The notes below the pieces were generated by a model. That model made no database searches. It worked only from the letters and a program-made list of their open reading frames with translations, and was not told the origin of the DNA. Made by a program: the position numbers and the translations under genes. Below, piece after piece: positions 2,455 through 34,618 of a DNA stretch of 64,000 nt; within the stretch, counting starts at the first letter, position 1; every line of letters begins with the position of its first letter. The stretch is from the NCBI RefSeq assembly GCF_039645565.1, contig NZ_CP147914.1, positions 124,001 to 188,000 on the forward strand, written 5' to 3'. The stretch comes from Sulfurimonas sp. HSL1-2 (GTDB taxonomy: Bacteria > Campylobacterota > Campylobacteria > Campylobacterales > Sulfurimonadaceae).

Positions 2455-2494
2455 GATACGTCATAGATTAGCTGTGTTATAACCCGGCAGCATT

Positions 2495-2762
2495 TGGGCA
2501 TCACTAAAAACCCTGTGCGGATATCAGAGGGCATTTGAAATATGAGGTTGTCTTTGTTTTCGTTGTAGGCATAGCCAAGGCTATGTCAAAACGAAACGGA
2601 GGAAAGATCGTGTTTCAAATGCCCTTCCAAAGGACACCACAGAGAAAGCCATCCTCGGCGTTGTCGCTTTTCGACGTAGCCTTCGCTATGCCATCAAAGC
2701 GTCGCCTTGATGATGATTTTCTCTGCGGTGCTGAGACCGTACAGGGCTTTTAGTGATGCCCA
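2495..2762. repeat. 268-bp cloverleaf-like palindromic element
   Basis: The ends are 22-bp inverted repeats (2495-2516 and 2741-2762, one mismatch), with pairing continuing imperfectly inward. Between them are two long imperfect hairpins. Arm 1 spans about 2527-2625, closed by GGGCATTTGAAA (2530-2541) with its complement TTTCAAATGCCC (2613-2624) and with GGCATAGCC/GGCTATG near the tip. Arm 2 spans about 2635-2730, with CAGAGAAA near its left base pairing with TTTCTCTG near its right base. Together they fold as a three-way junction. There is no coding potential I trust and no clear target duplication. It ends 14 bp before the thiG start. It could be a MITE-like interspersed repeat or a structured 5' leader of thiG. 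Confidence 0.7.
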
Positions 2763-2776
2763 CAAGGAGAGAGAAT

Positions 2777-3556
2777 ATGAGCGATACACTGAAAATCGGA
2801 AAATATGAGTTCAACAGCCGCCTGATCGTGGGCAGTGGGAAGTACAAAGATTTCGAAACGACGAAGGAGGCGACACTCGCTTCGGGCTCCGAGCTGATCA
2901 CCGTTGCGGTGCGCCGTCTGAACATCACGGACCCGAACAAAGAGAATCTGCGCGACACCTTCAAAGGAACGGGCGTACAGTTCCTGCCCAACTCTGCGGG
3001 GTGTACGACGGCCGAGGAGGCGATCACGACCTTCCGTCTGACCCGCGAGGCGACGGGCATCGACCTGATCAAGCTCGAAGTCATCGGCGATACGCAAAAG
3101 ACCCTCTACCCGGACGTCCTCGAGACGATCAAAGCGTGCGAAGTCCTGGCCAAGGACGGCTTTACGATCATGGCCTATACCTCCGACGACCCGATCATGG
3201 CCAAGCGCCTCGAAGATGCCGGTGCGCACGCCGTCATGCCGCTGGCGGCACCCATCGGTTCGGGCCTGGGGATCCAGAACCGGTACAACGTCGTCTTCGT
3301 CCGCGAAGCGGTCAGCGTTCCGGTTATCGTCGATGCGGGAATCGGCTGCGCTTCCGATGCGGCGGCGGCGATGGAACTGGGGGCCGAAGGGGTCCTCACC
3401 AACACGGCGATCGCCCAGGCGAATGACCCGATGACGATGGCGGTGGCGATGAAGCATGCCGTCATGGCAGGACGCATGAGCTACCTCGCTGGGCGTATCC
3501 CGAAACGCCCGTATGCGACGGCCTCATCCCCGATCGACGGGATGATCCAGTTCTAA
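2777..3556 (+). CDS. thiG: Thiazole synthase
   Basis: 259 aa from the ATG at 2777, chosen because AAGGAG (2764-2769) sits at ideal spacing; the upstream GTG/ATG at 2753-2758 lies inside the palindromic element. ThiG condenses deoxyxylulose-5-phosphate, dehydroglycine and ThiS-thiocarboxylate sulfur to form the thiazole of thiamin. The (beta/alpha)8 family features are clear: [10 protein letters not shown] near the N-terminus, the Schiff-base lysine context LIKLEVIGD near residue 95, [10 protein letters not shown], and [18 protein letters not shown] for phosphate binding. No other thi gene is adjacent, so the gene stands alone here. Confidence 0.95.
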
Positions 3557-3608
3557 GGGACTGTTGCTCTTTTTCATTTCAAGGCATTTCTTCTGCAGCT
3601 TTGTTCCC

Positions 3609-3683
3609 CTTCTTTTTTACAACGAGGCATTTAGTGCCTCGCATGCATTGTGCTTTAGCGCTTATGCTCGTACAAAAAAGAAG
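3609..3683. repeat. Multi-hairpin element downstream of thiG
   Basis: A 10-bp outer stem (CTTCTTTTTT at 3609-3618, complement at 3674-3683) encloses a perfect 7-bp hairpin (3623-3641, CGAGGCA/TGCCTCG) and a weaker hairpin near 3645-3667. The T-rich left strand and A-rich right strand could serve as a bidirectional terminator between convergent thiG and ackA. The multi-arm shape resembles, on a smaller scale, the element upstream of thiG. Confidence 0.5.
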
Positions 3684-3810
3684 CCGAACCGGGAAGAAAA
3701 AAGTACGAAAAGGCTGCCGCGACGTATAACTTCCTGAATGCCTTTCACATGTCACAGCTGTGTTGGGTGTTCCATGGGTGCCAGTCAGTTGTGATGTATT
3801 CTGTCCGTTC

Positions 3811-7186: not shown

Positions 7187-10100
7187 ATGAAACGGTGGAT
7201 CCGGCGCATTCTGCTCGGCGTGCTCTCGCTTTATCTTCTGGCGGCACTCTTTGCCGTTCCCTACCTGATCCGCACAAAAGTGCCGGAGCTGGTCGGGGAG
7301 ATAACCGGGGGGACGCTGGAGATCGACGGGGCCCAGTTCAACCCTTTCATCCTCGACCTGACGGTGGAGGGGATCCGATTTGCCGACCCCGACGGCGCGC
7401 CGCTGGCGAGCCTGCGGCGTCTGGACGTCAACGTCGATGTGCTTCACCTGTTGTGGGGGGAGATCTCCGTCGAGTATTTCGGGCTGCGGGGACTGCGCCT
7501 CTCCATTGTACAGGAGCCAGACGGGGGGTTCAACTTTGACTGGCTGACGCACCTTGGCAGTGCCGACACCGCACAGACTCAGACACCTCCCGCGGAGACG
7601 AACGGCAGTACCATGCCCTCGCTGCGCCTGGAGACGTTCGAGCTTGAAGACGGCGGGATCACCTTTACCGACCTCTCCCGTCCCGTGCCGCTTCAGCTGG
7701 ATTTCTCACCGATCGGCCTTGATCTGCACGATATCGATACCGGGGGCGGCGGCGATAACGAACTGCACCTCTTTGCCCATACGGAGGAGGGCGGACTGCT
7801 CGACGTCAAGAGCCGCGTGCACTCCTTTGATCCCTTTGCCATCTCGGGAACGGTCGATTACGATGCGGGGCGCCTCTATGACGCCTGGCACTTTCTGCGC
7901 GAGATCAGCGCCCTCGAGGTGGCCGACGGCCGCATGGAGCTGCACTTTACCTATGACGTCAACCTGGCGGAGCTGAATGCCACGACGATCGATGAGCTTC
8001 GCTTCGCCCTCAACCGCCTTCGCGTCAAACCCAAGGCTGAGAACGCGGATGTGCTGCGCGTAGCATCGCTGACGGTCGAGGGGGGACCGATACATCCGCT
8101 CGCGCAGTTCGGCCGGATTGATACGGCGGGGATCGACGGGCTCTATGTCGATCTCAAGCGGCACAGAGACGGCAGCCTAAACTGGGCGCACTATTTCCCC
8201 AAGACGGATGAAGCCAACGTTTCCGCCGCACCGGCCCCGGACACGGCGGCGACAGCTTCCGCTCCGTGGGATCTGCTCATCAACCGGGTGGCACTGAGGC
8301 ACATCCGGGGGCGTTTCGACGACGCCAGCGTCCGCCCGGCCGTGCACCTTGCGCTGGACGAGTTCAACCTGACCGCGCGCCATGTCAGCGCGCTCCCGGC
8401 CACGCCGCTCGCCTATGACATGGCATTGCAGCTCAACAAAGCGATGCGCTGCGAGGCGGAGGGGAGGCTTTCGCATACGCCGCTGGACGCGACCGCCCTG
8501 GCAGCGTGCAGCGGACTGGACGTGACCTGGTTCAACCCCTACATCGATGCCGCCGCCGATGCCGCGCTGGCCCGGCACGATGTCGTACTGCGCAGCGCCG
8601 TACTGGGCGCCGCCGCGGACGTCACCGCCCGGGAAGCGAACGCGTCGGTCAACGTCACCGTCAACGACGCCAATGCAACGCTGCAGTCGCTGCTGGTGAC
8701 GCCCAAAGGCTCGAAACGGGAGCTTGTCGCTTTCGATGCGCTTTCCGTCACGGGCGTGACGGCGTCGACGGCGGCGAAGAAGGCCGGGGTCGGGCGGATC
8801 GTGCTTGAGAAGCCCCAGGTCAACCTGCGCCGCGAGCGCGACGGCAGTATCGACGCCGCACAGCTGGTCAAAGCGAAACCGGCCGCACCGGCCAAACGCG
8901 GCACCGCCCAAAAGGCGCAGCAGGCGGAGACGCCCTGGAGTGCCGCCATCGATAAGATACAGGTTCGTAGCGGTGCCGCTTCGTTCCGCGACGCCGCCAT
9001 CGCGCGCACGACCACGACGCGCTTGCAGCGTTTTGACCTGGATGTGAACGGCGTGACGACGGACCCCTCCCGCACCATCGGCCTGCAGGGCAGCTTCCGC
9101 ATCAACGGCGACGGGAGGGTGCGTGCGAAAGGGTCGGTCGTGCCGGAGCCGCTGAAGGCAACGACGGATTTCAGCGTCTCGGGGCTGCGCCTGAAACCCT
9201 TCAGCCCCTACGTGGAAAAGGGGATGTTCATACGGATCGCCGACGGGCGTGTCGGCCTGAAGGGGCAGACCAGCTACCGCCCATCAAAGCGTGCGGCGGA
9301 CCTTCGGCTTCGCGGCGACTTTAACCTGAATGACCTTCTGGTCAACGACACCCGCGACGGGATCCCCCTTGTCTCGATGAAGACGCTGGAGGCCAAAAAG
9401 CTTCTGTTCGAACTCTCCCCCGACCAGTTCTATGTCGATAACGTGACGATGGGCGGATTCTTCAGCTCGATCCTGATCGATGCAAACAAAACACTGAACC
9501 TTGCAAACCTTGTGCGAACTTCGGAGAAAGCCACGGCGACGAAACTGGCAGACAAACCGGCCGAAGCAGACAAGCAGCCCTTCCCCGTCCGTATCATGAA
9601 GTTTACGCTCTACAACGGGGCCGTGCATTTTGCCGATGAGTCGCTTCCGCTCCCCTTCGACACGCAGATCCATGATGTCAACGGCGAGGTGCTGGGGATT
9701 TCAACGCTGCCCGAAGACACGACCTACCTGCAGTTGGCGGGGGAGATCGACGAGTACGGCGCGGCCAAGGCCGAGGGGAGCCTCAACACGGGCGACCCGA
9801 AAGCCTTTACGGATATCGGGGTCAACTTCCGCAATATCGAGCTGAAATCCTACACCCCCTACTCGGGCAAGTTCGTCGGCCGGGCGATCGACAGCGGAAA
9901 GCTTTCGGTGACGCTGCGTTACCGGATCGTCAAGGGCGCGATGCAGGGGGACAACGGGATGGTCATCAACAAGATCATGCTCGGCGATACCATCGAAAGC
10001 AACGATTCGGTGAGCCTGCCGCTCGATTTCGCCATCGCCCTGCTCGAAGACCGCGACGGCGTCATCGATATCGACATGCCGGTCGAGGGGGATGTGAACA

Positions 10101-16331: not shown

Positions 16332-16379
16332 TGATATCTTTTTCATGTTGATGCCTTCATTATCATTGGTTTTCAAATT

Positions 16380-16414
16380 TTGTAGTAAAAACTGTAGTAA
16401 AAAAATATTTTTTT
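16380..16414 (+). repeat. Putative integrase arm-type repeats, left end
   Basis: Two adjacent TGTAGTAAAAA copies followed by A/T tracts. A very similar arrangement occurs just inside the right end of the island (37024-37056), in the same orientation. Arm-binding sites of tyrosine integrases typically flank attachment sites in this way. Confidence 0.5.
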
Positions 16415-16482
16415 CATTACAAAGTATTGTTACAATCTTTCAAGAGAGAAAGATAAAAAAAACATTCATAAGAGAGTTGTTC

Positions 16483-17631
16483 ATGGCTATGAAACCTGCC
16501 GGTGGGAAGTACAATGGAGTATGGATCAATGAGCTCAAAAATGGTGACGTTTCATACTACATCAACTACCGCGATGAGCATGGGAAGCCGAAAAAGGTTC
16601 AGGTAGGTAAAAAAACCAAAACATCCGACTTTACAGTGAAAGACGCTTTCGCAAAACTCATCGAAATGAAATATCGACTTCAACATGACGAAGAACCGGT
16701 GCTCAAGGGTGGAAGAGTTGCCAAGATTAAGCTCGATGATTTGTGGGAAAAGTATTTCAGTTATGCCAAGGCCAATAAAAAATCCTATCTCATAGACAAA
16801 CAGAATTATTATAAGCATATCAAACCCAGATTCGGTCATAAAAATGTAAAAGGGTTGAGCTCTTTGGAGTTTGAAAAGTTCAAGCAGGATCTCATGGCCA
16901 AAGGCCTGGAGGCTCAAACTGTCAAACACCAGTTGACCTTGATCCGAACAATCATCAATTTTGCGATCAAACACAATGTTCTCAAAAACTTCACCAACCC
17001 CATCGGAGGCGGAAAAGTGAAAATGCCTGACATCGACAATAAACGTCAGGCATATCTGACTAAAGAACAGGCTAGAGAAATTCTGGAGGTTTTGAAAGCG
17101 ACGCATCCGCTTACATATCATTTGACCGTGTTATTGCTTTTTACCGGGGCCCGTTTCAGCGAGATTACGGGTGCTTCGGCACAGAAGAACAAAACAGGCA
17201 TGGATACTCGATTGAAGTGGCATGACGTCAATTTTGAAAACAACACCATCTATTTCAAAAAGACGAAGAATGGGAATGATCGCCATATCGCAATGAATGG
17301 GATCCTCAGAGAGACTATGGACTATCTCTATGCAAATAGGTTTGATGATAATGTCATATGCAATAGCAATGGTGGAATTGTTTTGAGAATGCCGGACTAT
17401 TTTTTGGCTGCGGTGGAAATTGTGATTCCAGGGAATAGAAACAGAGAAAATAAATACAAAATCACCGCCCATTCATTACGGCATACACATGCAAGTTGGC
17501 TGGCGGAAGCGGGACTGGACATTTTGCAAATCAAAGAACAACTTGGGCACAAAAACATTGAGATGACAATGCGCTATGCACATCTTATCCCAAATGTAAG
17601 ACATCAGGTGACAAAGGTATTATTCTCCTAG
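16483..17631 (+). CDS. Tyrosine recombinase (island integrase)
   Basis: 382 aa from the ATG at 16483; the open frame extends upstream to 16345 but through AT-rich leader, and MAMKPAGGKYNGVW is a typical phage-integrase N-terminus. Domains in order: arm-binding N-terminal domain (about 1-75), SAM-like core-binding domain (about 85-175), catalytic domain (about 195-382). The catalytic residues are visible: Arg in LFTGARFSEITG, Lys in KKTKNGNDRHI, HSLRHTHASWL (HxxR plus second His), LGHKNIEMTMRYAH with the His and nucleophile Tyr. Placed 230 bp from attL, it most likely catalysed insertion into tRNA-Leu. Confidence 0.95.
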   Translation: MAMKPAGGKYNGVWINELKNGDVSYYINYRDEHGKPKKVQVGKKTKTSDFTVKDAFAKLIEMKYRLQHDEEPVLKGGRVAKIKLDDLWEKYFSYAKANKKSYLIDKQNYYKHIKPRFGHKNVKGLSSLEFEKFKQDLMAKGLEAQTVKHQLTLIRTIINFAIKHNVLKNFTNPIGGGKVKMPDIDNKRQAYLTKEQAREILEVLKATHPLTYHLTVLLLFTGARFSEITGASAQKNKTGMDTRLKWHDVNFENNTIYFKKTKNGNDRHIAMNGILRETMDYLYANRFDDNVICNSNGGIVLRMPDYFLAAVEIVIPGNRNRENKYKITAHSLRHTHASWLAEAGLDILQIKEQLGHKNIEMTMRYAHLIPNVRHQVTKVLFS

Positions 17632-21044: not shown

Positions 21045-21689
21045 TTGATTCTTACACTTTCTCACCAAAAAGGCGGCGTTGGAAAGTCGACTATCGCCTG
21101 GAACCTGGCATTGGAATTCTCAAAGTTCTTACCCGTTACAGTCATCGATTTGGATATGCAGCGTTCCATGAGTGCTGCAAATAGGATTCGTACTGACAAG
21201 GGTATGGCACCTCTTGATATCTGTCATTTTGGAGATGCTGACGAGTTTGTTCACTATATCGAAAAAGATCATGAGGGTCGTCTCACTATCATCGATTCTG
21301 GCGGGTTCGACAGTTCATTCAACCGAATAGCCATTATGGCGTCAGATGTCCTCTTGACTCCAGTATCCGACAAGCCATTCGATCTTTTAGGACTACAGAA
21401 ATATGAAGAGATATTGGAAGCGTTGTCGGGCTTTCAAGAAAAGACCATTAAAACGCACGTTGTGTTAAATAACTTGAACCCTGCTCTCAGAAATTTTGGT
21501 GATGTTATGGAGTTTGTATTGATGTCGGAATACTTTGAACTCATGACGTCGGTATTGAGGCAGCGAGTGGATTTTTCTAACTCTGTTGGTGTAGGGAAAA
21601 GTGTCATAGAACATGCTCCTCAGGGCAGGGCGGCTCTGGAGATGAAAGCGTTGTGTAAAGAGATAGGTGAGATATTAAATATATTATAA
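21045..21689 (+). CDS. ParA/MinD-like ATPase
   Basis: 214 aa; start TTG 21045 with AAGGAT upstream. Deviant Walker A HQKGGVGKST near residue 7, VIDLDMQRS (Walker A' region) and IIDSGGFDS (Walker B). It is short like ParA proteins of type Ib partition cassettes that lack an N-terminal HTH. Such ATPases segregate plasmids or position cargo on the nucleoid. It heads a run of six same-strand, tightly spaced genes that continue into the restriction system. A stabilisation role for the excised island is inferred. Confidence 0.85.
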   Translation: MILTLSHQKGGVGKSTIAWNLALEFSKFLPVTVIDLDMQRSMSAANRIRTDKGMAPLDICHFGDADEFVHYIEKDHEGRLTIIDSGGFDSSFNRIAIMASDVLLTPVSDKPFDLLGLQKYEEILEALSGFQEKTIKTHVVLNNLNPALRNFGDVMEFVLMSEYFELMTSVLRQRVDFSNSVGVGKSVIEHAPQGRAALEMKALCKEIGEILNIL

Positions 21690-21726: not shown

Positions 21727-21951
21727 TTGATGGCAAAAAAAGATTTTCTGAAAAATATTGAAAAAGTCAAAAGCTCTGCAGCAATGAGCGAGCAGAATAG
21801 TAGTAAAGTAATATCGAAAGAGAAGAAGAAAAAGCTGATTACAATCCCGGTTGAATGGGAGGATAAGATCAAAGCATTTCATGGAGGTACGGTCAGTGCC
21901 TACATCCTCATTGCACTGCAGGAACGCATGCATAAAGATGGTTTGATCTGA
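21727..21951 (+). CDS. Small ribbon-helix-helix-like (ParG-type) protein
   Basis: 74 aa. The basic, disordered N-terminal half is Lys/Ser-rich. The C-terminal half (KLITIPVEWEDKIKAFHGG-TVSAYILIALQERM) has the strand-helix-helix pattern of ribbon-helix-helix DNA-binding proteins such as ParG or Arc. Position directly after a parA-like gene fits the centromere-binding partner of a type Ib cassette. The stop overlaps the start of the PLD gene (TGATG). Confidence 0.65.
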   Translation: MMAKKDFLKNIEKVKSSAAMSEQNSSKVISKEKKKKLITIPVEWEDKIKAFHGGTVSAYILIALQERMHKDGLI

Positions 21952-23504
21952 TGCAGATCATTGCCGACAACGTCAAGCTGAGAGAGAAGCTGGTCTCTTT
22001 GATAGATGAGTGTGATCGGATACAAATTGCTTCCGCCTGGGCCAGTGCCGGGAATATCGTAGTTGATGCCCTCCTTCAAAATAAAGAAAAAATACAAAAG
22101 CTCATTGTAGGGACACATTTCTTTCAGACAGATCCGAAATTTTTGGCAGCTTTCGAGGGTTTTGAAAAAGCCAGAGTCAGAATGCATGAAGGCGCCGTTT
22201 TCCATCCTAAAATCTACTATTTCGATATGGGTAACAATGGCTGGGAATGCCTGATTGGGAGTGCCAATTTGACCAATGCAGCCATGGGTAATAATGACGA
22301 GATTATGGTACTTGTCAGTGATTCAGATGCAGATGCATCGACTGCACAGCTTGATATTTGGAAAGTGATGGGAGAATGGGAAAAAAACGCCAAAAAGATA
22401 GATAATGAGTTCATCAACTTTTACACAAAGCTTTACAAGGCCAAAAGCCAGGCATTGCAAAGTGTTGCGACTCCACTGCCACCAAAGGATTCAGAACGTA
22501 CATTTGACAGTGAGATTTTTTCTTTGACCTGGGAGGAGTTCTTCAATGAGATCCAGGAATTTACGATTTTTGAGAAGGGCACCATCATAGATAGAGATGC
22601 GGTATTAAGCAAGGCTCATCAGCTGTTTAGTACACATCAGAATTTCGCACAAATGGGTGAACTCGACAGGAAAAAGATCGGTGGGTTTTATGAGAGGATT
22701 GAAGACGGGTTGGACTGGCGGTGGTTCGGAAGCATGAAAGGGAGCGGAGACTTCAAAAAACAGATAAACGATAACAATCCTCATATATCAAGTGCTTTGG
22801 ACCTGATACCCAACGATGGAACCGTTACACGGGAAGACTATCTCGCTTATATCGATGAATTTTCCAAGTCGTTCACGGAAGAGCAGAACAGGCTTGCTAC
22901 GTCCACGAGACTGCTGACCATGAAGCGTCCTGACTATTTCATGTGCGTGGATTCGCAGAACAAAAGGCAGTTGTGCCGGGATTTTGGGATCATCGAGCGT
23001 GAGCTGAACATAGACACCTATTGGGACCTGATTACAGCGCAAATCATCAACTGTGCGTGGTGGAGCCAGGATCCATCTGTGCTTACTGGGTTGCAGCGGT
23101 CCGTATGGAATGGCAGGGCCGCATTTTTAGATGCATTGTATTATCAGAATATAGTACGTTCCAACGCGAAGCCTTTTTTACAAAGCAATTATCCCGAATT
23201 GCTGCGACATAAACTGTGTTCTAGCCGAAAATGGGAAGAAGAGGGAGACTTGGGAAATTGGTGGTTCAAGTTCTCCGAAGACGACCTCAAGAGTTATGAG
23301 TATATTGTACTCGCGGGTGCCCTGGATGATTCCAACCATGCTTTCAAACTATTCAAAATCCCGACACAATACATAATAGACCACCTTGACAAATTAGATT
23401 GTAACGCAGAAGGGCGTATGATAAATATCTATTTATCGATCGAAGACCATATCGACTTGCGTAATGACTATCATTTGAGCTTCAAAGAATTTTGTATCAA
23501 CTAG
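21951..23504 (+). CDS. PLD-like (HKD) putative nuclease with large C-terminal domain
   Basis: 517 aa. Residues about 1-165 form a phospholipase D-like domain: FHPKIYYFD near residue 83 gives the H-x-K of the HKD motif, followed by [18 protein letters not shown]. One HKD copy is present, so an active site would need a dimer, as in Nuc or BfiI. Residues about 190-517 form a separate domain I do not recognise, rich in aromatic residues ([24 protein letters not shown]). Coupled to the preceding gene by TGATG and 7 bp from hsdM, so it belongs to the restriction operon. PLD-fold endonucleases exist among restriction enzymes, and a DNA-cutting role is inferred. Confidence 0.75.
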
Positions 23505-23511
23505 GATAATT

Positions 23512-25098
23512 ATGAGTTTCAAAAACATTCAGGAACTGGAAAAACGACTTTGGGATGCGGCCGATGAACTTCGGGCCAATTCCGACCTGACGTCGCAGGA
23601 GTATTCGCGTCCGGTGCTGGGGCTGATCTTCCTGCGCTATGCGGAGTACCGTTTCGAAATGGCGAAGGCGAGGATCGAAGAGAAGCAGAGTTCCCGCAGA
23701 CGTGGTGGCGATATCAAGACGGCCATCCAGGCGGAGGGGGCGATGTATGTCCCTGAGGGAGCACTATACTCGAAATTGTTGGAGCTGCCTGACGGTGCCG
23801 ATGTCGGCAAGGCGATCAACGATGCCATGAAGGCGCTGGAAGCGGAGAACGAGGCGATCAAGGATACCCTGCCGAAGACCTTTACGAAGTTCGACGGCGA
23901 TACACTCTCCGGACTGCTGAAGAACTTCGCGGCGATCCGTTTCGACATTGGTTCCGACGTCTTCGGTCGGATCTACGAGTACTTCCTGACCCAGTTCGCC
24001 CGGGCCGAGGGGCAGGGCGGCGGCGAGTTCTTCACGCCGAGCCCGCTGGTCCGTCTGATCTCGGAGATCATCGAGCCTTACAGCGGCAAGGTGTACGACC
24101 CGGCGTGCGGATCGGGCGGCATGTTCGTCCAGAGTGCGGCGTTCGTGCGGGAGCACAACAAAACGGCGACTTCCGAGCTCTCCATCTTCGGCGAGGAAAA
24201 GACAGGCGATACGGTACGCCTGGCGAAGATGAACCTCGCGGTGCACGGTCTCGAAGGGGACATCAAAAACGGCAACTCCTACTATGAAGACATCCACGAC
24301 AGCGTCGGCAAGTTTGACTTCGTCATGGCCAATCCCCCGTTCAACGTTGACAAGATCCAGAAGGAGCGCCTCGAAGACAGCAAGGCCCGCTTCCCGTTCG
24401 GGATGCCGCGGGTGGATAACGGCAACTACATTTGGATCCAGATGTTCTACTCGGCGCTCAACGCTAAAGGTCGTGCCGGCTTCGTCATGGCCAACTCAGC
24501 CAGTGATGCCCGCGGCTCCGAGATGGAGATCCGCCGCGAGATCATCCAAAGCGGTGCCGTCGACGTCATGGTGGCGATCAGTTCCAACTTCTTCTACACG
24601 GTAACTCTACCTAGCACACTTTGGTTCTTCGACAAAGGCAAGCCTGAAAGTCGCAAGGACAAAGTGCTCTTCATTGATGCTCGCCACATCTACACCCAGG
24701 TCACCCGGGCCGTGCGCGACTACTCCAGCGAACAGCTCAATTTCGTTGCCAATATTGTACGGCTCTACCGGGGCGAAATGGTAGACGACACTTTCCTGGC
24801 AACCCACCCCGACGAGCGAAACAGTGGTGATTGGAGCATCGAGAAATTCTTCCCGGATGGCACTTATCAGGACATCGCTGGACTCTGTAAAGTTGCGACA
24901 ACTGAGGAGATCGAAGAGCAGGGATGGAGCCTCAATCCCGGACGATATGTCGGCGTTGCCGAAGGGGAGGAAGAGGATGAAGAGGAGTTCCGCATCAAGC
25001 TTGAAGAGCTGCAGGAGGAGCTGGAGATTCTGAACGGTGAAGCGCATGAGCTTAAAAAGATCATTGCTCAGAATGTTGCAGAAGTGTTAGGATACTAA
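23512..25098 (+). CDS. hsdM: Type I restriction-modification methyltransferase subunit
   Basis: 528 aa. HsdM N-terminal helical domain (about 1-160), then the N6-adenine methyltransferase domain: [18 protein letters not shown]-binding [14 protein letters not shown] near residue 196, and catalytic NPPF in [13 protein letters not shown] near residue 280. The C-terminal coiled coil ([24 protein letters not shown]) contacts HsdS. It methylates adenine in the bipartite target set by HsdS. Base composition is clearly GC-richer than the neighbouring island genes, hinting at a different origin. Confidence 0.96.
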
Positions 25099-25101
25099 TA
25101 A

Positions 25102-26331
25102 GTGAAAGTGTCAACTACGTTAGGTGAGCACATCACGACACAAAAAGGGTTCGCTTTTAAAAGTAAATGGTATGTCACAGAGGGGCAACCCATCGTTAAG
25201 GTTAGTGATTTTACTTCGGACTCCATTGATCCAAGGAATCTAATTTGTATACCAAAAGAGCTAGCACGGGAATATTCCAAATATCAGCTTCAACAAAATG
25301 ACATTATTATTCAAACTGTTGGCTCTTGGCCAAGCAATCCAGCATCTGTTGTAGGTAAAACGATACGTGTACCAAGAAGTACTAATGGGGCACTCCTTAA
25401 TCAAAATGCTGTTAAAGTCATCCCAAACAAGACTATAGACCAAACATATCTATTTTACTTGTTAAGAAACAACGATTTTAAAGATTATATAGTCGGTACT
25501 GCACAAGGGGCAGCAAGCCAAGCCAGTATTACATTGGATTCAATTCGTTCATTTAAATTCGACTTGCCACATTTGGATAAGCAACGGAAAATCGCTTCCA
25601 TCCTCTCCACCTACGACGACCTGATCGAAAACAACAACCGTCGCATCGCCATCCTCGAAGAGATGGCCCGAAGACTCTACCGCGAATGGTTTGTCAAATT
25701 CCGCTTTCCGGGGCATGAAGCGATCAAGATGGTTGACTCGGAGCTTGGGAAGATCCCGGAAGGGTGGGAGGTTGTTAAACTTTTTGACATCGCAGCTCCA
25801 ACATATGGTTTTGCATTTAAATCTAAGCTATTCACCGATGATGGGAATGGAATCCCCGTTGTACGTATTAGAGATATTCCGAAGGGGTTGTCAAATACGT
25901 TTACCCAGGAACATCCAAAAAAAGAAGATCAAATTCTTCAAAATGGCGATTTGCTTATTGGTATGGATGGTGATTTTCACATGGGGAAATGGTCCGGAGG
26001 TCATGCGTACTTGAATCAGCGAGTAGTTAAGATTACTCCGTTTGATAATTATTCGAAATACTTTGTTTTTCTCTCGTTCCAAAAACCTATTTTGGATCTG
26101 AACAAATCGATTGTAGGTACTACGGTTGCCCATTTGGGAGATAAACATTTAAAAGAAATCAAGATAATTTTGCCAGAAGAAGGAAGTCGGAAACAAGCGG
26201 AAAGGTTGTTAGATGCATTGTTCGACAAAGAAATTAATCTAAAGCTTAGGAATCGGAATCTTCAAAAGCAACGAAATATGCTACTACCGAAACTTATCTC
26301 GGGAAAGATTAACCTTCTATATGGCAAATAG
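25102..26331 (+). CDS. hsdS: Type I restriction-modification specificity subunit
   Basis: 409 aa; GTG start 3 bp after hsdM. Two target-recognition domains (about 1-155 and 220-355) alternate with conserved helical spacers: HLDKQRKIASILSTYDDLIENNNRRIAILEEMARRLYREWFVKF in the centre, given here only as its position (about 154-200), and a second at the C-terminus. The central spacer is GC-rich whereas both recognition domains are AT-rich, the pattern left by domain swapping. Overlaps the next gene by 11 bp. Confidence 0.94.
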   Translation: MKVSTTLGEHITTQKGFAFKSKWYVTEGQPIVKVSDFTSDSIDPRNLICIPKELAREYSKYQLQQNDIIIQTVGSWPSNPASVVGKTIRVPRSTNGALLNQNAVKVIPNKTIDQTYLFYLLRNNDFKDYIVGTAQGAASQASITLDSIRSFKFDLPHLDKQRKIASILSTYDDLIENNNRRIAILEEMARRLYREWFVKFRFPGHEAIKMVDSELGKIPEGWEVVKLFDIAAPTYGFAFKSKLFTDDGNGIPVVRIRDIPKGLSNTFTQEHPKKEDQILQNGDLLIGMDGDFHMGKWSGGHAYLNQRVVKITPFDNYSKYFVFLSFQKPILDLNKSIVGTTVAHLGDKHLKEIKIILPEEGSRKQAERLLDALFDKEINLKLRNRNLQKQRNMLLPKLISGKINLLYGK

Positions 26332-27427
26332 AAAAAACCAGCATTTCGTTCCACAATATTATTTTCGTTATTTTTCAAAAGGACAATCAAGCATAAATGT
26401 CCTGCTTAAAGATAGTGGAAAAATCATTGAAAATGCACCAATCAAAGGCCAATGTTCAAAAAACAATTTTTACGGATCTGTTGAAATTGAAAGCCTATTT
26501 TCAAAAATTGAGGGACGACACAGTGCAGTTTTAAAAAAAATTCAATCAATTAACTCAAAAAAAGAATTTATTGAATATGCCACTATGTGCGATGAAGCCC
26601 CAGAACTTGGATTGAATCCAGATTTGCTTGAATTACTGCAAGCAATTATGTTTCAAAAATCAAGAACGGAGTTTGAAGCGAAAAAACATAGTGAGATGTT
26701 TGGGCAAGTAATTAAAGAAGTATTTTTAAAGGATATGGAACTACAAGTAAACGATGAAATTCTCAAATATAAAGAATTTCTAGATATATCGACGGATTTA
26801 ACAGATACAGTTCTGATGACACTAGAAATTGCCACAAAAAGAACAGCATTGATCTCAGACTTAGGAATTTATATTCTGAAAAACAAAACATCTACAGAAT
26901 TTATTTTTAGTGATGCACCAGTAGTTATTTATAATAAGTATTATCAAAATGTTCACTTACGTGGCGTTCTTGGGTTACAATCTCCTGGATTAATGATTTT
27001 TTATCCTATTACGCCTGATACATGTATTTTATTATTAGACGAAGCTGTTTATCACGGAGCCAGTAACTTTGTTGAGATCACAAATACTCACGACATTGCG
27101 AGTATCAACAAGTTGCAGTTGCATCATAGTTTGAATGCAATCTATTTTTCGGAAAATGTCAGCCCTAAATATATTAGAAAACTATGGAAGCAACAGCGAC
27201 ATAGTTTTAGAACAGATAAGATGAAGGTTGTAGTTGCTTCGGCTTTAGATCATAAAGGGAATGATATGGGAGAAGTTATGCATTCATATGAACCCCAGAT
27301 ACCGTATTCACTAAATTTGTCATTCATCACATCCGAAGTGCGAGGTGATAAAGATTATGATAACTCGTACAGAAACCCGGAGTTAATTGCTGAAGTCGAG
27401 AAGGAAATAAAACCTTCTCAACAATAG
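26321..27427 (+). CDS. DUF4238 family protein
   Basis: 368 aa; the start overlaps the hsdS end by 11 bp, so it is part of the restriction operon. The N-terminal NQHFVPQYYFRYF is the hallmark of DUF4238, followed by a helical region and a mid-protein strand region (FIFSDAPVVIYN, FYPITPDTCILL). The biochemical activity of DUF4238 is not known to me; members occur scattered in bacterial accessory regions. Very AT-rich compared with hsdM. Confidence 0.8.
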   Translation: MANRKNQHFVPQYYFRYFSKGQSSINVLLKDSGKIIENAPIKGQCSKNNFYGSVEIESLFSKIEGRHSAVLKKIQSINSKKEFIEYATMCDEAPELGLNPDLLELLQAIMFQKSRTEFEAKKHSEMFGQVIKEVFLKDMELQVNDEILKYKEFLDISTDLTDTVLMTLEIATKRTALISDLGIYILKNKTSTEFIFSDAPVVIYNKYYQNVHLRGVLGLQSPGLMIFYPITPDTCILLLDEAVYHGASNFVEITNTHDIASINKLQLHHSLNAIYFSENVSPKYIRKLWKQQRHSFRTDKMKVVVASALDHKGNDMGEVMHSYEPQIPYSLNLSFITSEVRGDKDYDNSYRNPELIAEVEKEIKPSQQ

Positions 27428-27429
27428 AA

Positions 27430-27564
27430 CTATTTTCGCCCTTTACGGGTTTGACTCAGAGCACTGCCGGCAAGAGACTTGCATGATTTGCTGGCAGAAC
27501 CACTTTTGAGCACCTTAGCAGCTTTGGAAGCAACACTCTTAGAGGTCTGTTTCTTATTAGGCAT
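27430..27564 (-). CDS. 44-aa basic Lys/Ser/Ala-rich small protein
   Basis: Start ATG 27564, chosen for the AGGAG 5-6 bp upstream. The sequence (MPNKKQTSKSVASKAAKVL...SLAGSALSQTRKGRK) matches a widespread family of about 40-residue proteins with the SK-SVASKA and SLA-SALSQ patterns, found in many bacteria and phages, function unknown. The stop lies 3 bp past the convergent DUF4238 gene. Confidence 0.65.
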   Translation of the reverse strand: MPNKKQTSKSVASKAAKVLKSGSASKSCKSLAGSALSQTRKGRK

Positions 27565-27650: not shown

Positions 27651-27965
27651 TTATTCGTAGATAAACCTGTCCAAAAAACTGAGCAGATATAGCAAATAAA
27701 AAATGACTGCAGTCAGAATCAATGCAACCAGAAAATAGTATTCATTTGCCACCAGGTACCAACCAAGTGCTGCTACAGGCAAGACAATCAGTTTGGCAGA
27801 TAGGTCCAACAGCTTGTTTCTTTCTCGATAAGTGTCTGACAGATCAAAACGAAAAATGAATATGACGATACCAATACCGATTGCCAGCAAGAGATACGGC
27901 CATGAAAATTCGACCGCGGTTGATGCCGCAGTCTGAAATGCATGTTTTAAATCCAACATTTTCAT
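27651..27965 (-). CDS. Small membrane protein
   Basis: 104 aa, three predicted transmembrane helices (about 20-38, 57-73, 76-98). Two possible starts: ATG 27965, or ATG 27959, which has the better-spaced AAAGGA. Divergent from the XRE-ImmA gene across a palindromic operator region, so it may be controlled by that regulator. No family recognised. Confidence 0.5.
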   Translation of the reverse strand: MKMLDLKHAFQTAASTAVEFSWPYLLLAIGIGIVIFIFRFDLSDTYRERNKLLDLSAKLIVLPVAALGWYLVANEYYFLVALILTAVIFYLLYLLSFLDRFIYE

Positions 27966-27973
27966 TCCTTTGC

Positions 27974-28023
27974 GAAATAGGTTTACAAATATAACATATA
28001 ATTTGTAAATGTAAACCTATTTC
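27974..28023. promoter_or_regulatory. Palindromic operator between divergent genes
   Basis: The inverted arms GAAATAGGTTTAC (27974-27986) and GTAAACCTATTTC (28011-28023) enclose a second perfect inverted repeat TTTACAAAT/ATTTGTAAA. A further GTAAAC half-site occurs downstream near 28076. Placement between a divergent membrane gene and an XRE regulator fits an autoregulatory operator. Confidence 0.6.
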
Positions 28024-28100
28024 AGTATAAATGAAGAGTAAAAAATTTACAATGTGGCCATAATTGGTTTGTTTTGTAAACTTAGTATGAGGAGGTGCTT

Positions 28101-29165
28101 ATGTTGGCCCAACGCATAGAACGTGCGCGTAAGACTTCCGGATTGTCGTTACGCGATTTGGCAGCAAAAGTTGGTGTAAGCCAGACAGCTATCAACAAAT
28201 TTGAGAAAGGGACTTTAACTCCCGACTCAACAATGTTGATCAAACTCGCAAAAGCCCTGAATGTGAAAGTCGGATATTTTCTGCGTTCAACGACACTGGA
28301 ACTTGAAAAACCGGAATACCGTAAAAAGAGTACGCTTTCTGCAAAAAAACTGCAGATGATAGAGGGAAAAATCCTTGATTTGATTGAACGTCGGATGGAG
28401 CTTGAATCACTTTTTCCGAAGCCGCCGGTCCAGGAATTTGTCATCCCTAGTAATTTGCCAGAGCAAGTTACATCGATGGATGAAATTGAAGAAGTGGCAA
28501 AGTCGGTACGAGAACAGTGGCAACTGGGGTTAAACCCGATTCCGGAACTCGTGGATGTGCTTGAAAGCAAGGGGGTCCGTGTATTTGAAATAGGGGAAAG
28601 CGCTGATAGCAAATTTGACGGTTTGGCCGCCAAAGTGAATGGTCAGCGTGTCATTGTAATCTCTAGTAATTGGTCCGGTGACCGTCAGCGGTTCACCATG
28701 GCACATGAGCTCGGACACCTTATCCTTGAAGGACGTCTTATCGATGAACTGGATGAAGAGCTTGCTTGCCACCGTTTTGCAGGAGCATTCTTGCTGCCGG
28801 AAGATGCAATCTGGTCTGAACTTGGCGAATTTCGAACCCGACTGGAGCTCCAGGAATTGCTGATGCTCAAACAGGAGTTCGGTATCAGTATGTCCGGGAT
28901 CCTGTATCGTGCAAAAGATCTTGGAATCATCAAGCAGAGCTATCATAAACAGTTGATGATTGAGTTCTCGAAGCGGCGCTGGCGTAAAAATGAGCCTCAA
29001 CCATATCCGGCAGAAAAACCGCACCATTTCAAGCAATTGGTATTTCATGCTTTGGCCGAAGAATATATCGGGGAATCAAAAGCTGCGGATTTGATGGATA
29101 TGAGTGTCCATAAATTTTATCAATTACGAATGATTGAGGATGGGCATGCAGCTTCTGATCAGTGA
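28101..29165 (+). CDS. XRE-type regulator with ImmA/IrrE metallopeptidase domain
   Basis: 354 aa from the ATG at 28101 (strong GAGGAGG; an in-frame GTG at 28095 overlaps it). Residues about 4-60 form an XRE helix-turn-helix (LSLRDLAAKVGVSQTAINKFEKG). The middle is the COG2856/DUF955 domain with the zinc-peptidase motif AHELGHLILEG near residue 200 and the downstream glutamate region DEELACHRFAGAFLLPED. In phage and ICE systems such proteins cleave or displace repressors. A C-terminal extension (about 300-354) adds an HTH-like MSVHKFYQLR segment. Overlaps the next gene by 20 bp. Confidence 0.9.
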   Translation: MLAQRIERARKTSGLSLRDLAAKVGVSQTAINKFEKGTLTPDSTMLIKLAKALNVKVGYFLRSTTLELEKPEYRKKSTLSAKKLQMIEGKILDLIERRMELESLFPKPPVQEFVIPSNLPEQVTSMDEIEEVAKSVREQWQLGLNPIPELVDVLESKGVRVFEIGESADSKFDGLAAKVNGQRVIVISSNWSGDRQRFTMAHELGHLILEGRLIDELDEELACHRFAGAFLLPEDAIWSELGEFRTRLELQELLMLKQEFGISMSGILYRAKDLGIIKQSYHKQLMIEFSKRRWRKNEPQPYPAEKPHHFKQLVFHALAEEYIGESKAADLMDMSVHKFYQLRMIEDGHAASDQ

Positions 29166-29640
29166 TACAAATATTATCATTGATCTCGATGTGTGCGGGC
29201 TCATCGAAAAGATGTTTGACCTCTCATATGCGTTTGCAGTGCCTGATGTACTGTACATTGAAGAGCTTGAGGAGCAGCACGGAGAGTTGCCTGCCTATGG
29301 GTTATTGATCAAATCGCTTGAATCAGAAAAAGTCGATTATGCTGTTGCGCTTCAGGCCAAGCATATAGAAACCAGCCCAAATGATCTGTTTGCCCTTGCT
29401 TTGGCGAAACAGGAAGAGTGCCCTCTTTTGACAGGGGACATGGCATTGCGTACTGTAGCTGCTGAAGAAGAAATTGAGATCAAAGGGACACTCTGGATTG
29501 TAGAACAAATGGTTGTTCAGGGTATCATTGGCATTGATCGTGCCGAGGGAGCATTTGAGGATATGAAAATGAAGCAGCGCAGGTTACCTTGGAAAGAAGT
29601 TGAGCGAATGCTTGAACGGCTCAGGGATAAATTGGAATAG
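29146..29640 (+). CDS. PIN-like domain protein (putative RNase partner)
   Basis: 164 aa; start ATG 29146 with TTGAGGA upstream. LLISDTNIIIDLD at the N-terminus gives the first PIN acidic residue, and SPNDLFALALAKQEECPLLTGDMALRTVA supplies the conserved Asp pair typical of PIN nucleases such as VapC or DUF3368. Overlapping expression with an XRE-ImmA protein suggests a toxin-antitoxin-like or regulated nuclease pair. It ends 9 bp before hsdR, so all three may be cotranscribed. Confidence 0.75.
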   Translation: MQLLISDTNIIIDLDVCGLIEKMFDLSYAFAVPDVLYIEELEEQHGELPAYGLLIKSLESEKVDYAVALQAKHIETSPNDLFALALAKQEECPLLTGDMALRTVAAEEEIEIKGTLWIVEQMVVQGIIGIDRAEGAFEDMKMKQRRLPWKEVERMLERLRDKLE

Positions 29641-29649
29641 GGCGGCATA

Positions 29650-32600
29650 ATGAGCTATAGTGAGGACGCTTTAGTAGAACAACCTGCCATTCAATTCTTT
29701 GAGGGAATGGATTGGGAAAGCTGCCACTGCTATGATGAAACTTTTGGTCTGGAAGGAACTCTTGGTCGAGAGGACCGTTCGAAAGTTTTCCTATTCGGTC
29801 GTCTTTATGAAGCTATCGAGAAACTAAATCCCGGACTTGAGAACCATGTCATTCAAGAAGCAATAGAAGAACTGACGCGCGATCGATCTTCCATGAGCGT
29901 TATTGCTGCAAACGAAGAGGTCTACGATTTTATTAAAGATGGCGTCAAAATCAATATCATTGACGAGGACAGCGAGGACACAGTAACCGTAAAAATCATT
30001 GACTGGGACGTTCCGAAAAACAACAACTTCCTTCTCACATCGCAGCTATGGATTACCGGGGAAGTTGAAACTCGGCGAATGGACCTGGTCGGATTCGTGA
30101 ATGGCCTCCCGCTCGTTTTCATTGAACTCAAAACCTCGCACCGGAAACTCATTAACGCATACAAAGACAACCTCAAGGACTACCGCTCAACTATCCCCCA
30201 GCTTTTCTGGTACAACCAGCTGATCATCCTTTCAAACGGCATCCAGTCCCGGGTAGGAACGATCTCAAGCGGCTGGGAGCATTTCGCCGAATGGAAAAAG
30301 GTTGAAAGTGAAAAAGAAGAGCGTCGCGTCAGCCTAGAAGTAATGCTGCGCGGTACCTGCGACAAAACCCGCCTGCTGGATATCATCGAGAATTTCATTC
30401 TTTATATCCGAAAAAAAGAGACGGTGAAGATCGTTGCCAAGTATCACCAGTACCTCGGAGTCAACGAAGCGCTCGCAGGAGTGCGGCATATCAAGGAACT
30501 CGAAGGCAAGCTAGGGGTCTACTGGCATACCCAGGGGAGCGGCAAAAGCTTTTCCATGATCTTCTTCTCGAAAAAGATCTTCCGAAAAATACCGGGGAAC
30601 TGGACGTTCGTCTTGATCACTGACCGTACCGATCTGGACGACCAGATATATAAGGGTTTTCAGGCTGCAGGGGTTTTGATACAGGAGTGCCAGGCGGAGT
30701 CTGGCGATGATCTGAAACAACTCCTGAAAGAAGACCATCGGTATGTCTTCACACTGATACAGAAGTTCGGTACAAAGGGTGGAGAGACCTTCCCGGAACT
30801 CTCCGATCGTGATGATGTCATTGTCATTACGGATGAAGCACACCGAAGCCAGTATGCATCGTTGGCAATGAACATGCGCAAGGCATTGCCGAATGCCGCC
30901 TTTATCGCCTTTACCGGAACGCCGTTGCTTGCCGGTGAAGAGAAGACGAAAGAGGTCTTTGGCGACTATGTCAGTATCTACAATTTCTCCGATGCCGTTG
31001 AGGATAAAGCAACGCTGCCACTTTATTATGAAAACCGGGTACCGGAGGTCAATCTCAACCGAGAGGATCTCGGCGAGGAGATCGTCGATATCCTCGACCA
31101 GGCGGATCTTACCGACGAGCAGGAGGCAAAACTTGAGCGCGAGTTTGCCAATGCCTACCACATCATCACCCGCGAGGAACGGCTTGATACCATCGCAGAC
31201 GATATCGTCGAGCACTATATGGGGCGCGAGTTCATGGGCAAGGCTATGGTTGTTTCGATTGATAAGGCAACGGCTATCCGAATGTATGACAAAGTGCAGA
31301 AAGCCTGGAAACACAAACTGGGGCGACTGAAGGTGAAGTCCCGCGTGATGTACGGTTCCAAACTGGCAAAGATCAAAGAAGACATAGCCTATATGGAGCG
31401 AACCGATATGGCCGTTGTCGTCTCCGGAGGCCAGAACGAATACGAGCGTCTTGCTGCGAAGGGAATCGACCTAAGACCCCATCGGGAGCGGATGCAGCGA
31501 GAGAGGCTGGACGAAAAGTTTAAAGACCCCGACGATCCGCTGAACATCGTGTTCGTTTGTGCCATGTGGCTGACCGGATTCGATGCCCCGTTCACGTCCA
31601 CGCTCTACCTAGATAAACCGTTGAAAAACCATACGTTGATGCAGACCATCGCACGGGCCAACCGGGTCTATCCGGGCAAGCCAAACGGACAGGTCGTGGA
31701 CTATATCAATATCTTTGGAGCACTGCAGGAAGCACTGGGACGATACGGCCACGGTGTCAAGGAGCCTTCAACCGGATACGGCGAAGAATCTGATACACCG
31801 GCGCAGGATAAAACCGTACTGTTGCATGCCCTTGAAAATGCTATTTTTGAGCTGCAAAAGTATTTGCGTGAACGTAAAATCGATCTTGATGAGATTATCA
31901 CTGCGAATACGGATGACTTTGTGAAGCTCCGACTGCTTGATGAAGCAAGTGAAATCCTTCTTGAACCGGCCAACGAAGATGAGTTCACTTCCTATGTGAG
32001 ACAGATAAACCGGATATTCAAAGGCATCCTTCCTGATACGCGAGCCGATATCTACGTGCGGCAGCGTGTTGCGATAAACGTCATTTATCGTCAGATGAAG
32101 ATCAAGAGTGGCGAAGACATCGATGACGAGGATGTACTGCAGGTGATCCGCAACCAGGTCAACGAGTTACTGGATGAATCCATAGAAACTGTAGCAATTG
32201 AATCCCACCTCCCTGAACCTGTCGACATCTCCAATATTGATTTTGAAGCATTGGCGAAGATGCTGGATCGTATCGAAAAGCCGAAGACATCAGATGCCGA
32301 TAAACTGAAAAACCTTATTGCCCGAAAGCTGCCAAATATGGTAAAGCGCAACAAGCTTCGTCAGCAACTGCAGGAAAAGTTCCAGGAACTGGTGGATCAA
32401 TACAATCTGGGAGCATACACGACCGAAGAGTTCTTTGAGAAACTCAAACAGTTTATCCGTGATGAACTAGATCCGGAAGAAAAACGTGCAATGCGTGAAG
32501 GACTTAGTGAAGCTGAGCTGGCGATATTCGACCTTCTGGTGTCGGAAGTTCATCTGAGCGAGAAAGAGCGCAACGACATTAAACGTATTGCGAAGGATCT

Positions 32601-32799
32601 GCTCGAAAAACTCAAAGAAACACTGGTGATTGACTGGCGTAAAAAGCAGCGCTCCAAAGCACAGGTGAAACGTGTAATTGAGGATGTTCTGGATGAATTA
32701 CCAGCAAGTTATGATGATACGATTTGGCCACATTCTGTGGAGTTGGTTTATCAGCATGTCTTTGATGCCTATAGTGGTCGAGAACAGAGCGTTTACTGA
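29650..32799 (+). CDS. hsdR: Type I restriction-modification endonuclease/translocase subunit
   Basis: 1049 aa, normal for HsdR. The N-terminal PD-(D/E)xK nuclease domain shows DLVGFVNGLPLVFIELK near residue 150. The SF2 motor follows: Walker A WHTQGSGKS near residue 300, VIVITDEAHRSQ (motif II, DEAH), AFTGTPL (motif III), and TGFDAPFTSTLYLDKPL with IARANRVYPGK for later motifs. The C-terminal helical domain (about 800-1049) docks on the M2S core. It cuts foreign DNA after translocation. It is separated from hsdMS by 3.3 kb holding the XRE-ImmA/PIN pair. Confidence 0.96.
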   Translation: MSYSEDALVEQPAIQFFEGMDWESCHCYDETFGLEGTLGREDRSKVFLFGRLYEAIEKLNPGLENHVIQEAIEELTRDRSSMSVIAANEEVYDFIKDGVKINIIDEDSEDTVTVKIIDWDVPKNNNFLLTSQLWITGEVETRRMDLVGFVNGLPLVFIELKTSHRKLINAYKDNLKDYRSTIPQLFWYNQLIILSNGIQSRVGTISSGWEHFAEWKKVESEKEERRVSLEVMLRGTCDKTRLLDIIENFILYIRKKETVKIVAKYHQYLGVNEALAGVRHIKELEGKLGVYWHTQGSGKSFSMIFFSKKIFRKIPGNWTFVLITDRTDLDDQIYKGFQAAGVLIQECQAESGDDLKQLLKEDHRYVFTLIQKFGTKGGETFPELSDRDDVIVITDEAHRSQYASLAMNMRKALPNAAFIAFTGTPLLAGEEKTKEVFGDYVSIYNFSDAVEDKATLPLYYENRVPEVNLNREDLGEEIVDILDQADLTDEQEAKLEREFANAYHIITREERLDTIADDIVEHYMGREFMGKAMVVSIDKATAIRMYDKVQKAWKHKLGRLKVKSRVMYGSKLAKIKEDIAYMERTDMAVVVSGGQNEYERLAAKGIDLRPHRERMQRERLDEKFKDPDDPLNIVFVCAMWLTGFDAPFTSTLYLDKPLKNHTLMQTIARANRVYPGKPNGQVVDYINIFGALQEALGRYGHGVKEPSTGYGEESDTPAQDKTVLLHALENAIFELQKYLRERKIDLDEIITANTDDFVKLRLLDEASEILLEPANEDEFTSYVRQINRIFKGILPDTRADIYVRQRVAINVIYRQMKIKSGEDIDDEDVLQVIRNQVNELLDESIETVAIESHLPEPVDISNIDFEALAKMLDRIEKPKTSDADKLKNLIARKLPNMVKRNKLRQQLQEKFQELVDQYNLGAYTTEEFFEKLKQFIRDELDPEEKRAMREGLSEAELAIFDLLVSEVHLSEKERNDIKRIAKDLLEKLKETLVIDWRKKQRSKAQVKRVIEDVLDELPASYDDTIWPHSVELVYQHVFDAYSGREQSVY

Positions 32800-33625: not shown

Positions 33626-34618
33626 CTACCCTCCTAAATAGTGTTCAGTGATACTGGCCCTGTTGTGTTTCATCTCACTGCTCACTTGTTGAAGGGAATC
33701 GGTATACGAGTAGCCAGCCAGCGCGTATTCAAACATTCTTCGTTTTGCGAAATTCCAGCGAAACCCATGTGAGCCCTCTGCATTTTCATGTGCGATAGTG
33801 GATGCCCGTATGATGTCATCCCAGTATTGTTGACGATTGATTTTGAAAGAGCTGTTGATTCGCATGTAATCTTCAAGTAAACGGTATGTACTGATATCGA
33901 TCAGTACATCTCCCTCTTTTCCACCTTTTTCTCGCGTGAAAATAATCCCTTTTTCAGTACCGGTAATCGGATCCAATCTTGTACCATGAAGCTGGGCTGA
34001 TTTTATAAGTGCGACCCCCTCGATTCTTGCCCCTCCTTCATACTGGATACGAGCTGCTAATTGATGTTGTGGATCTGACAATGAATTGATGAGTGCTTCT
34101 GGATCAGAATAGGCACGGTGGTGATAATTGTCGGCGACAAAATTTAAATCCCTCGCTTCATCCAGGATATATTGTCGAATAGAAAAATCATAGGCTCTTT
34201 CTTCGTTGTGAATATTCCGTGAGAATAGCTTCAGAGCAACCTCAAGTTTTCCTAGCGCAGAGCATATCTTTTCCAGGTATTGTTTGGATGGGTAATATTC
34301 AATTTTATAGTCCATGTATGCGGCAACATGTTCAGATGAAACCTGCTCAAAATCTTTTATGCCCCAGTGTTCTTTGAGATAATTAAAGAAGTTGTTCCAG
34401 ATATTTCGATAGCTTTCCATGGTTTTATAGGAAGCAACTTTTTGAAAATCAGGATGTTCAGGGTTTATACGTTCTTCTTTCTTTGCGCCGGATCTGAATA
34501 TCTGCTTTGCGAGTTGTGCGCTTTGATAATAGACACTTCCCCGCATGGGAACTCCCTTTTTTATTTTGATAGTTTCAGCCGCTATCTTCGGCAAATATAC
34601 TGTTAAGTCAATCTGCAT
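33626..34618 (-). CDS. Second, divergent tyrosine recombinase
   Basis: 330 aa from 34618, or 306 aa from the ATG at 34546, which has a better ribosome binding site (AAGGGAG). An N-terminal core-binding region (about 60-150) precedes a catalytic domain with Arg in YEGGARIEGVAL near residue 200, Lys in EKGGKEG, HGFRWNFAKRR (HxxR), and EMKHNRASITEHYLG (His and Tyr nucleophile). The family is unlike the attL-proximal integrase. It may act in excision, in a different recombination reaction, or be a relic of an older element. Confidence 0.8.
   Translation of the reverse strand: MQIDLTVYLPKIAAETIKIKKGVPMRGSVYYQSAQLAKQIFRSGAKKEERINPEHPDFQKVASYKTMESYRNIWNNFFNYLKEHWGIKDFEQVSSEHVAAYMDYKIEYYPSKQYLEKICSALGKLEVALKLFSRNIHNEERAYDFSIRQYILDEARDLNFVADNYHHRAYSDPEALINSLSDPQHQLAARIQYEGGARIEGVALIKSAQLHGTRLDPITGTEKGIIFTREKGGKEGDVLIDISTYRLLEDYMRINSSFKINRQQYWDDIIRASTIAHENAEGSHGFRWNFAKRRMFEYALAGYSYTDSLQQVSSEMKHNRASITEHYLGG

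Follow-up and report, generated by a model that had tools for sequence, protein, structure and literature searches.

A RosmerTA-like XRE–ImmA/PIN module behind a conserved operator is a candidate controller of hsdR in Sulfurimonas sp. HSL1-2

Sulfurimonas sp. HSL1-2 encodes a type I restriction-modification (RM) system: HsdM, HsdS and HsdR are all present with their domains. The window, by which we mean the whole stretch of 64,000 nucleotides that was analysed (contig NZ_CP147914.1, positions 124,001 to 188,000), contains these genes together with the features listed in Table 1. Directly upstream of hsdR lie a gene for an XRE–ImmA/IrrE protein, here called RmrA, and a gene for a PIN-domain protein; we refer to the two as the module. 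RmrA starts at the ATG at 28101, with a Shine-Dalgarno sequence, AGGAGG, at about 28091. A first, sequence-only reading of this DNA had placed the pair between hsdS and hsdR, with its genes overlapping by 20 bp and a gap of 9 bp before hsdR. Both distances are correct, and hsdM and hsdS do lie upstream, but the module is not immediately behind hsdS because the DUF4238 gene and two minus-strand ORFs intervene.

Table 1. Features of the hsd locus (positions in the window)
Feature	Position	Strand	Remarks
hsdM	23512–25098	+	Pfam HsdM; no RmrA operator in front
hsdS	25102–26331	+	Pfam HsdS
DUF4238 gene	26321–27427	+	overlaps end of hsdS
ORF for 44-aa basic protein	27430–27564	-	divergent from RmrA
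Gene for 104-aa small predicted membrane protein	27651–27965	-	divergent; downstream of operator 1
Operator 1 (predicted)	27981–28016	none	GTTTACA-N22-TGTAAAC, span 36; overlies divergent minus-strand promoter-like site
Promoter-like TTTACA-16-TATATT, inside operator 1	27988–28015	-	for divergent small genes; consensus match only
Operator 2 (predicted)	28045–28081	none	ATTTACA-N23-TGTAAAC, span 37, one mismatch
rmrA, XRE–M78 (ImmA/IrrE), RmrA-like, 354 aa	28101–29165	+	predicted autorepressor, antitoxin and peptidase
PIN gene (VapC-like), 164 aa	29146–29640	+	predicted RNase toxin, from Pfam, fold and active-site residues
hsdR, type I restriction endonuclease subunit	29650–32799	+	HSDR_N/SWI2_SNF2; predicted in rmrA–PIN operon

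The locus lies inside an integrated island of about 20.9 kb (window 16196–37127). A 21-bp direct repeat of the 3' end of tRNA-Leu(TAG) occurs at 37107 and at 16196, and the latter copy is adjoined by a tyrosine integrase gene (16345–17631). The island also carries a ParA-like gene (21045–21689) and a second recombinase-like gene (33626–34618). A PLD-nuclease-like gene (NgoFVII/PLDc_2; 21951–23504) lies 7 bp before hsdM, apparently in the same operon. The G+C content of the hsdM region (23500–25000) is 0.57, against 0.39–0.44 on both flanks, which suggests that the RM genes are of mosaic origin. There is one RmrA in the whole host genome of 2.52 Mb.

The small divergent genes have counterparts at other loci, which we cite by their survey numbers. 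Three loci, the window, L154 (about 9717) and L156 (about 6917), encode almost the same 44-aa basic protein (M[AP]NKKQTSKS[VI]ASKA...) divergently from RmrA, although the HsdRs beside it are strongly different. A tblastn search of plasmids gave no homologue of this protein. In L103 a small gene stands divergently at the same place as that for the 104-aa protein in the window.

Pfam assigns to RmrA an HTH_3 and a Peptidase_M78 domain. In PADLOC the protein matches 14 RmrA models, the best with an E value of 1.2e-57, and also capP (4.5e-15) and capH (5.9e-13). The HExxH motif is invariant among RmrA homologues, and a later Glu is also kept. Fold comparison of a structure model (pLDDT 88) with VIA-align returned the HTH domains of ImmR (Z 12.9) and CapH (7t5u; Z 11.9 over 63 residues), as well as CapP (7t5t; Z 11.5 over 160 residues). 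CapP is the sole peptidase among the best 50 matches, which are mostly HTH domains; because HTH domains fill these 50, the lack of further M78 proteins there is uninformative. The homologies support a model in which a single chain, RmrA, contains both an HTH of the CapH/ImmR type and a peptidase of the CapP type.

The PIN protein is harder to recognize. Its Pfam matches (DUF3368/PIN) are weak, and in PADLOC it matches the candidate PDC-S70 alone, weakly (E 3e-6), and no RmrT model. A search of PDB sequences with the PIN profile gave no clear match, only NOB1 at E 0.098, so that a fold model was needed. This model (pLDDT 93.9) reaches Z scores up to 13.6 against VapC/PIN structures, and the acidic residues D7, E40, D80 and D98 are invariant in 13 homologues.

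Across the genomes, plasmids and viral contigs of the module survey, intact PIN genes sit straight after RmrA with gaps mostly of -38 to +7, and the 20-bp overlap recurs; the exceptions are fragments, contig ends and disturbed frames. RmrA occurs without an intact PIN in S. baltica OS117 (L112, PIN frame broken), in Synechococcus PCC 7502 (L119, transposase behind) and on the viral contig L020. The reverse case, an intact PIN without RmrA, was found at none of the surveyed loci, and this asymmetry is what is expected of an antitoxin and its toxin. One locus (L180, 1221–3590) has a shortened PIN remnant without RmrA directly before an N6-methylase-like frame and is probably a decayed copy of an RM-associated arrangement. 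L004 was rejected as a relative: the match covers 52 residues, and the contig has a GntR-like regulator in that frame. Judged by sequence, the pair is a toxin–antitoxin (TA) system of a known kind, the Xre–COG2856 + PIN pair; we class it as RosmerTA-like rather than as a member because its PIN protein matches just PDC-S70 and no RmrT model. Given this family, the PIN protein is likely a toxin that RmrA neutralises.

The sequence-only reading had also described a double palindrome in front of the module, and it is there: one pair of arms lies at 27974–27994 and 28003–28023 (21 nt, 86%), the other at 28043–28052 and 28074–28083. Sequence comparison identifies the two palindromes as copies of a single operator, conserved across phyla beyond chance, of the form GTTTACA-N22-TGTAAAC and measuring 36–37 bp between its outer ends. 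Upstream of RmrA, 49 of 58 modules carry an exact symmetric copy and 55 carry one with at most one mismatch, although these modules include some close relatives and so represent fewer than 58 independent cases; base-shuffled upstream regions gave 0.1 exact copies and 1.3 with one mismatch. Fifty of 56 operator sites have spans of 36–37, a distance that separates the half-sites by about three turns of the helix. Operator 2 is at the usual distance from the RmrA start (about -56), the usual position of the RmrA promoter. The -10 signature inside the operators is weak on average, a point against the reading favoured below. A repeat with a spacer of 12–20 bp, or of exactly 17 bp, was rejected as the operator, having no match in the window.

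No exact copies of the operator occur elsewhere in the module loci examined, and a genome-wide pattern search found only two good copies, both at this locus; the only other matches are two degenerate ones far away. The same search found no operator before 21951 or 23512, and operator control of hsdMS was rejected on that ground. Across modules the half-site varies together with the recognition helix of RmrA: GTTTAT goes with SANAIKKYE, GTTTAA with SHTAIQKYE and GTTGAC with SKQ(A/S)IS. This covariation is a good argument for direct binding of the operator by RmrA, and we regard such binding as very highly probable. The usual operator was not found at the distant modules beside CBASS (L117, L118 and L192) and beside a ubiquitin-like operon (L188). 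At L119, where RmrA without PIN stands before a type I RM system, there is an inverted repeat GTTTAC...GTAAAC (about 7945–7992) that extends over about 48 bp and exceeds the usual span by roughly a turn of the helix. GTTTACA-N22-TGTAAAC before an XRE–ImmA gene offers a sequence signature for finding such controllers.

What does this operator control? The sequence-only reading suggested that hsdR may be regulated apart from hsdMS, and most likely it is. The 9-bp gap between PIN and hsdR contains no terminator, two minus-strand genes break the route from the hsdMS promoter to hsdR, and the sole good operators stand before the module with none before hsdM. From this anatomy rmrA, PIN and hsdR very likely share one operon. 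HsdRs about 44% identical, from the same family, that have no module directly follow hsdS (L098, L099), so it is the module that sets hsdR apart from hsdM and hsdS. The same arrangement is found on the S. kujiense plasmid pSULKU03, whose HsdR is 67% identical. In L156, from another family of the same order, the gene order is M–S–x–x–RmrA–PIN–R and HsdR identity is just 30%. A promoter-like match at 29632–29661 might be hsdR's own promoter; it is weak (9/12, with 1.0 expected by chance).

The module recurs beside defence systems. Among the 31 modules found by whole-genome searches, the nearest neighbour of at least 70 aa is an hsd gene in seven (the window, L103, L154, L156, L167, L173 and L178) and a PglX methyltransferase in one (L164). 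From about 72 HsdR_N domains in 94 sampled genomes, we estimate the chance of contact with an hsd gene at well under 1 in 100, taking a genome to have about 2,700 genes. Adjacency to RM genes requires at least eight changes on the RmrA tree. In a hand-picked sample of plasmids, which therefore gives no frequencies, the module heads hsdR–AAA–hsdM–hsdS–Shedu (L104), hsdM–hsdS–Fic–hsdR (L105, L109 and L112) and hsdM–hsdS–anticodon nuclease–hsdR (L108). CBASS or CBASS-like operons lie divergently to it in L113, L115–L118, L187, L189 and L192, as does a multiubiquitin/E2/ThiF/DUF6527 operon (1188–3766) in L188, a Neotabrizicola plasmid. Many copies have ordinary or housekeeping neighbours (L155, L159 and L163, for example), so control of defence genes would be frequent but neither universal nor obligatory. 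In all, RmrA–PIN resembles a portable immune-gene controller equipped with a toxin of its own.

Two further observations concern the genes around such modules. In L100, L102, L105 and L108 the hsdS–hsdR gap, or the spot just before hsdR, holds toxin-like genes (Fic, anticodon nuclease); embedded toxins may favour this place. In L176, L032, L028 and L175, unannotated genes (about 415, 336 and 300 aa) follow RmrA-PIN on the same strand. The copies tested gave no PADLOC match and in Pfam at most a marginal DUF1153, and we consider these genes candidates for undescribed defence genes.

The reading we favour, and hold to be reasonably probable, is that RmrA–PIN is a toxin–antitoxin module whose RmrA doubles as a local controller of the genes behind it. 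The pair might instead be a stand-alone addiction or abortive-infection system that came to lie between hsdS and hsdR by accident within a defence island. It would then regulate itself alone and stabilise the island, and hsdR would be expressed from its own promoter or by read-through. Such a history would suit the many loci where the module has no defence neighbours (L003, L155, L159, L163 and L002, which is the MAG BB26, or G004, of the host's own family, the Sulfurimonadaceae), its presence on plasmids, on phage contigs and here on an integrated island, and the weak promoter-like match before hsdR. It does not readily explain why the module is repeatedly placed on the same strand straight before hsdR or before hsdM in RM systems of unrelated type, arising through those eight or more changes on the tree, or why it also occurs at divergent CBASS promoters. 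The 9 bp to hsdR without a terminator and the retention of RmrA beside RM genes even where PIN has been lost (L112, L119) likewise weigh against it, and we consider chance landing rather unlikely.

The sequence-only reading had offered another purpose, a delay of restriction until the DNA is methylated. In one form of such a timer, RmrA would keep HsdR low after entry of the island while HsdMS methylates first, and PIN would mainly guard the island. That only hsdR, and neither hsdM nor hsdS, lies behind the operator speaks for this timer, as do the mobile island and the same split in S. kujiense and L156. Yet a repressor that must first be synthesised would permit early expression of its own operon and so give no delay. 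Moreover, in L104, L105, L016 and others hsdM and hsdS follow the module together with hsdR, so that M and R would rise together, and CBASS and ubiquitin-like operons require no methylation delay. We find a timer improbable. A switch that responds to stress or infection in general and has its toxin built in is more likely, because the module is also found at operons of CBASS, PglX and ubiquitin-like type, and for most of these no such delay is needed. Least credible is that PIN is no toxin at all, being an accessory RNase or an inactive partner that aids repression by RmrA, as VapC does for VapB. Obligate pairing would fit a co-repressor too, and the sequence has diverged from Pfam PIN; against this, all four catalytic acidic residues are invariant, and RmrA survives without PIN (L020, L112, L119) whereas no surveyed locus had an intact PIN without RmrA.

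How might a controller with its own toxin work? The analysis shows the anatomy of the locus, the operator, the recurrence of the module, the folds and the intact active sites. The operator and the operon are well supported; repression, cotranscription and toxicity we infer from sequence, anatomy and family, respectively. The HTH of RmrA would occupy the 36–37-bp operators and repress both divergent promoters. Since rmrA, PIN and hsdR would form one operon, hsdR would be repressed and hsdMS would not, and RmrA would hold the PIN RNase inactive. DNA damage, or single-stranded DNA from infection, might then activate the peptidase, and RmrA would be cleaved in cis or in trans; this step is modelled on the homologous CapH–CapP, ImmR–ImmA and DdrO–PprI. 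With RmrA lost, repression would end, hsdR would rise and PIN would be freed, restriction coming first and RNA cleavage with growth arrest serving as the fallback. The best reading of RmrA is that it is antitoxin, autorepressor and stress-activated protease together.

The trigger is proposed by analogy, as is self-cleavage. In Deinococcus the protease PprI senses single-stranded DNA and cleaves the repressor DdrO (PMC10904395, available text), and CapP, activated by single-stranded DNA, cleaves CapH, the two adjoining immune operons (PMC13373217, available text). The sequence-only reading had stated that proteolysis relieves repression in ImmA/IrrE systems; the folds of RmrA agree with this, as a CapH/ImmR HTH with a CapP peptidase is a design known to end repression in this way after DNA damage. 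On the other side, fused HTH–peptidases may not cleave themselves. A literature search for protease control of the XRE–ImmA antitoxin class returned no paper, and in RipAB of S. pneumoniae, where an XRE-ImmA antitoxin likewise neutralises a toxin, the antitoxin's mechanism depends on ClpX and is reported as open (PMC12795458). We give a protease or damage trigger about an even chance. That one cleavage event both switches on the adjoining defence system and frees the built-in RNase toxin is a more tentative idea; if true, here only the endonuclease subunit of the RM system would be switched on, with the RNase toxin as fallback.

The silencing and activation of restriction and immune operons is a current open question, and here a TA pair appears as the switch. 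The locus lets a connection between TA systems and the regulation of immune genes be tested directly, in a case where the RM endonuclease alone would be inducible. Within a literature that largely lacked subscription papers and was partly available as excerpts, neither this operator nor an XRE–ImmA antitoxin in control of RM or immune operons came up; the available text of PMC2701414, PMC10440598, PMC13373217 and PMC12255303 describes no operator for such modules.

Several known systems share parts of this design. In RptR–DarTG2 a type I RM island that has a TA system embedded in it is kept repressed (available text of PMC12255303), and the type I RM system of the window with its module would be a similar case; RptR, however, is a separate small repressor, not an antitoxin, and represses a whole-island promoter. 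CapK–CapS and VapKSC form a stress-controlled repressor family for immune operons and for restraint of a VapC-like RNase, but with kinase and STAS-repressor chemistry, and VapKSC is reported as a separate TA system rather than an operon controller (PMC13373217, in the part available). CapH–CapP, in the same text, is likewise an HTH repressor with an M78 peptidase beside immune operons, and both folds match; the window differs in having a single 354-aa chain instead of two proteins, in an operon that also includes a toxin gene. With VapBC the module shares a predicted PIN-domain toxin with an acidic active site, but membership was rejected, as the partner is XRE–M78 and not of VapB type (RHH, AbrB, Phd or similar). 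In RosmerTA, which is established, the XRE–ImmA antitoxin RmrA neutralises varied RmrT toxins, and in the network of that study this antitoxin class also pairs with PIN-like domains (PMC10440598, available text). The module resembles RosmerTA in its antitoxin (XRE HTH and ImmA/M78), its adjacent toxin gene, its overlapping two-gene operon and its mobility; unlike RosmerTA it has a putative PIN toxin without a match to a described RmrT family, its operator is conserved, and it stands repeatedly at the head of defence operons or opposite them. Its domain pair is identical to that of Xre–COG2856 + PIN, predicted in 2009 as a TA system with protease control on plasmids and phages (Makarova 2009, PMC2701414, available text); beyond what that text describes are the operator, the repeated occurrence next to RM, CBASS and further defence systems, and the proposed control of those operons.
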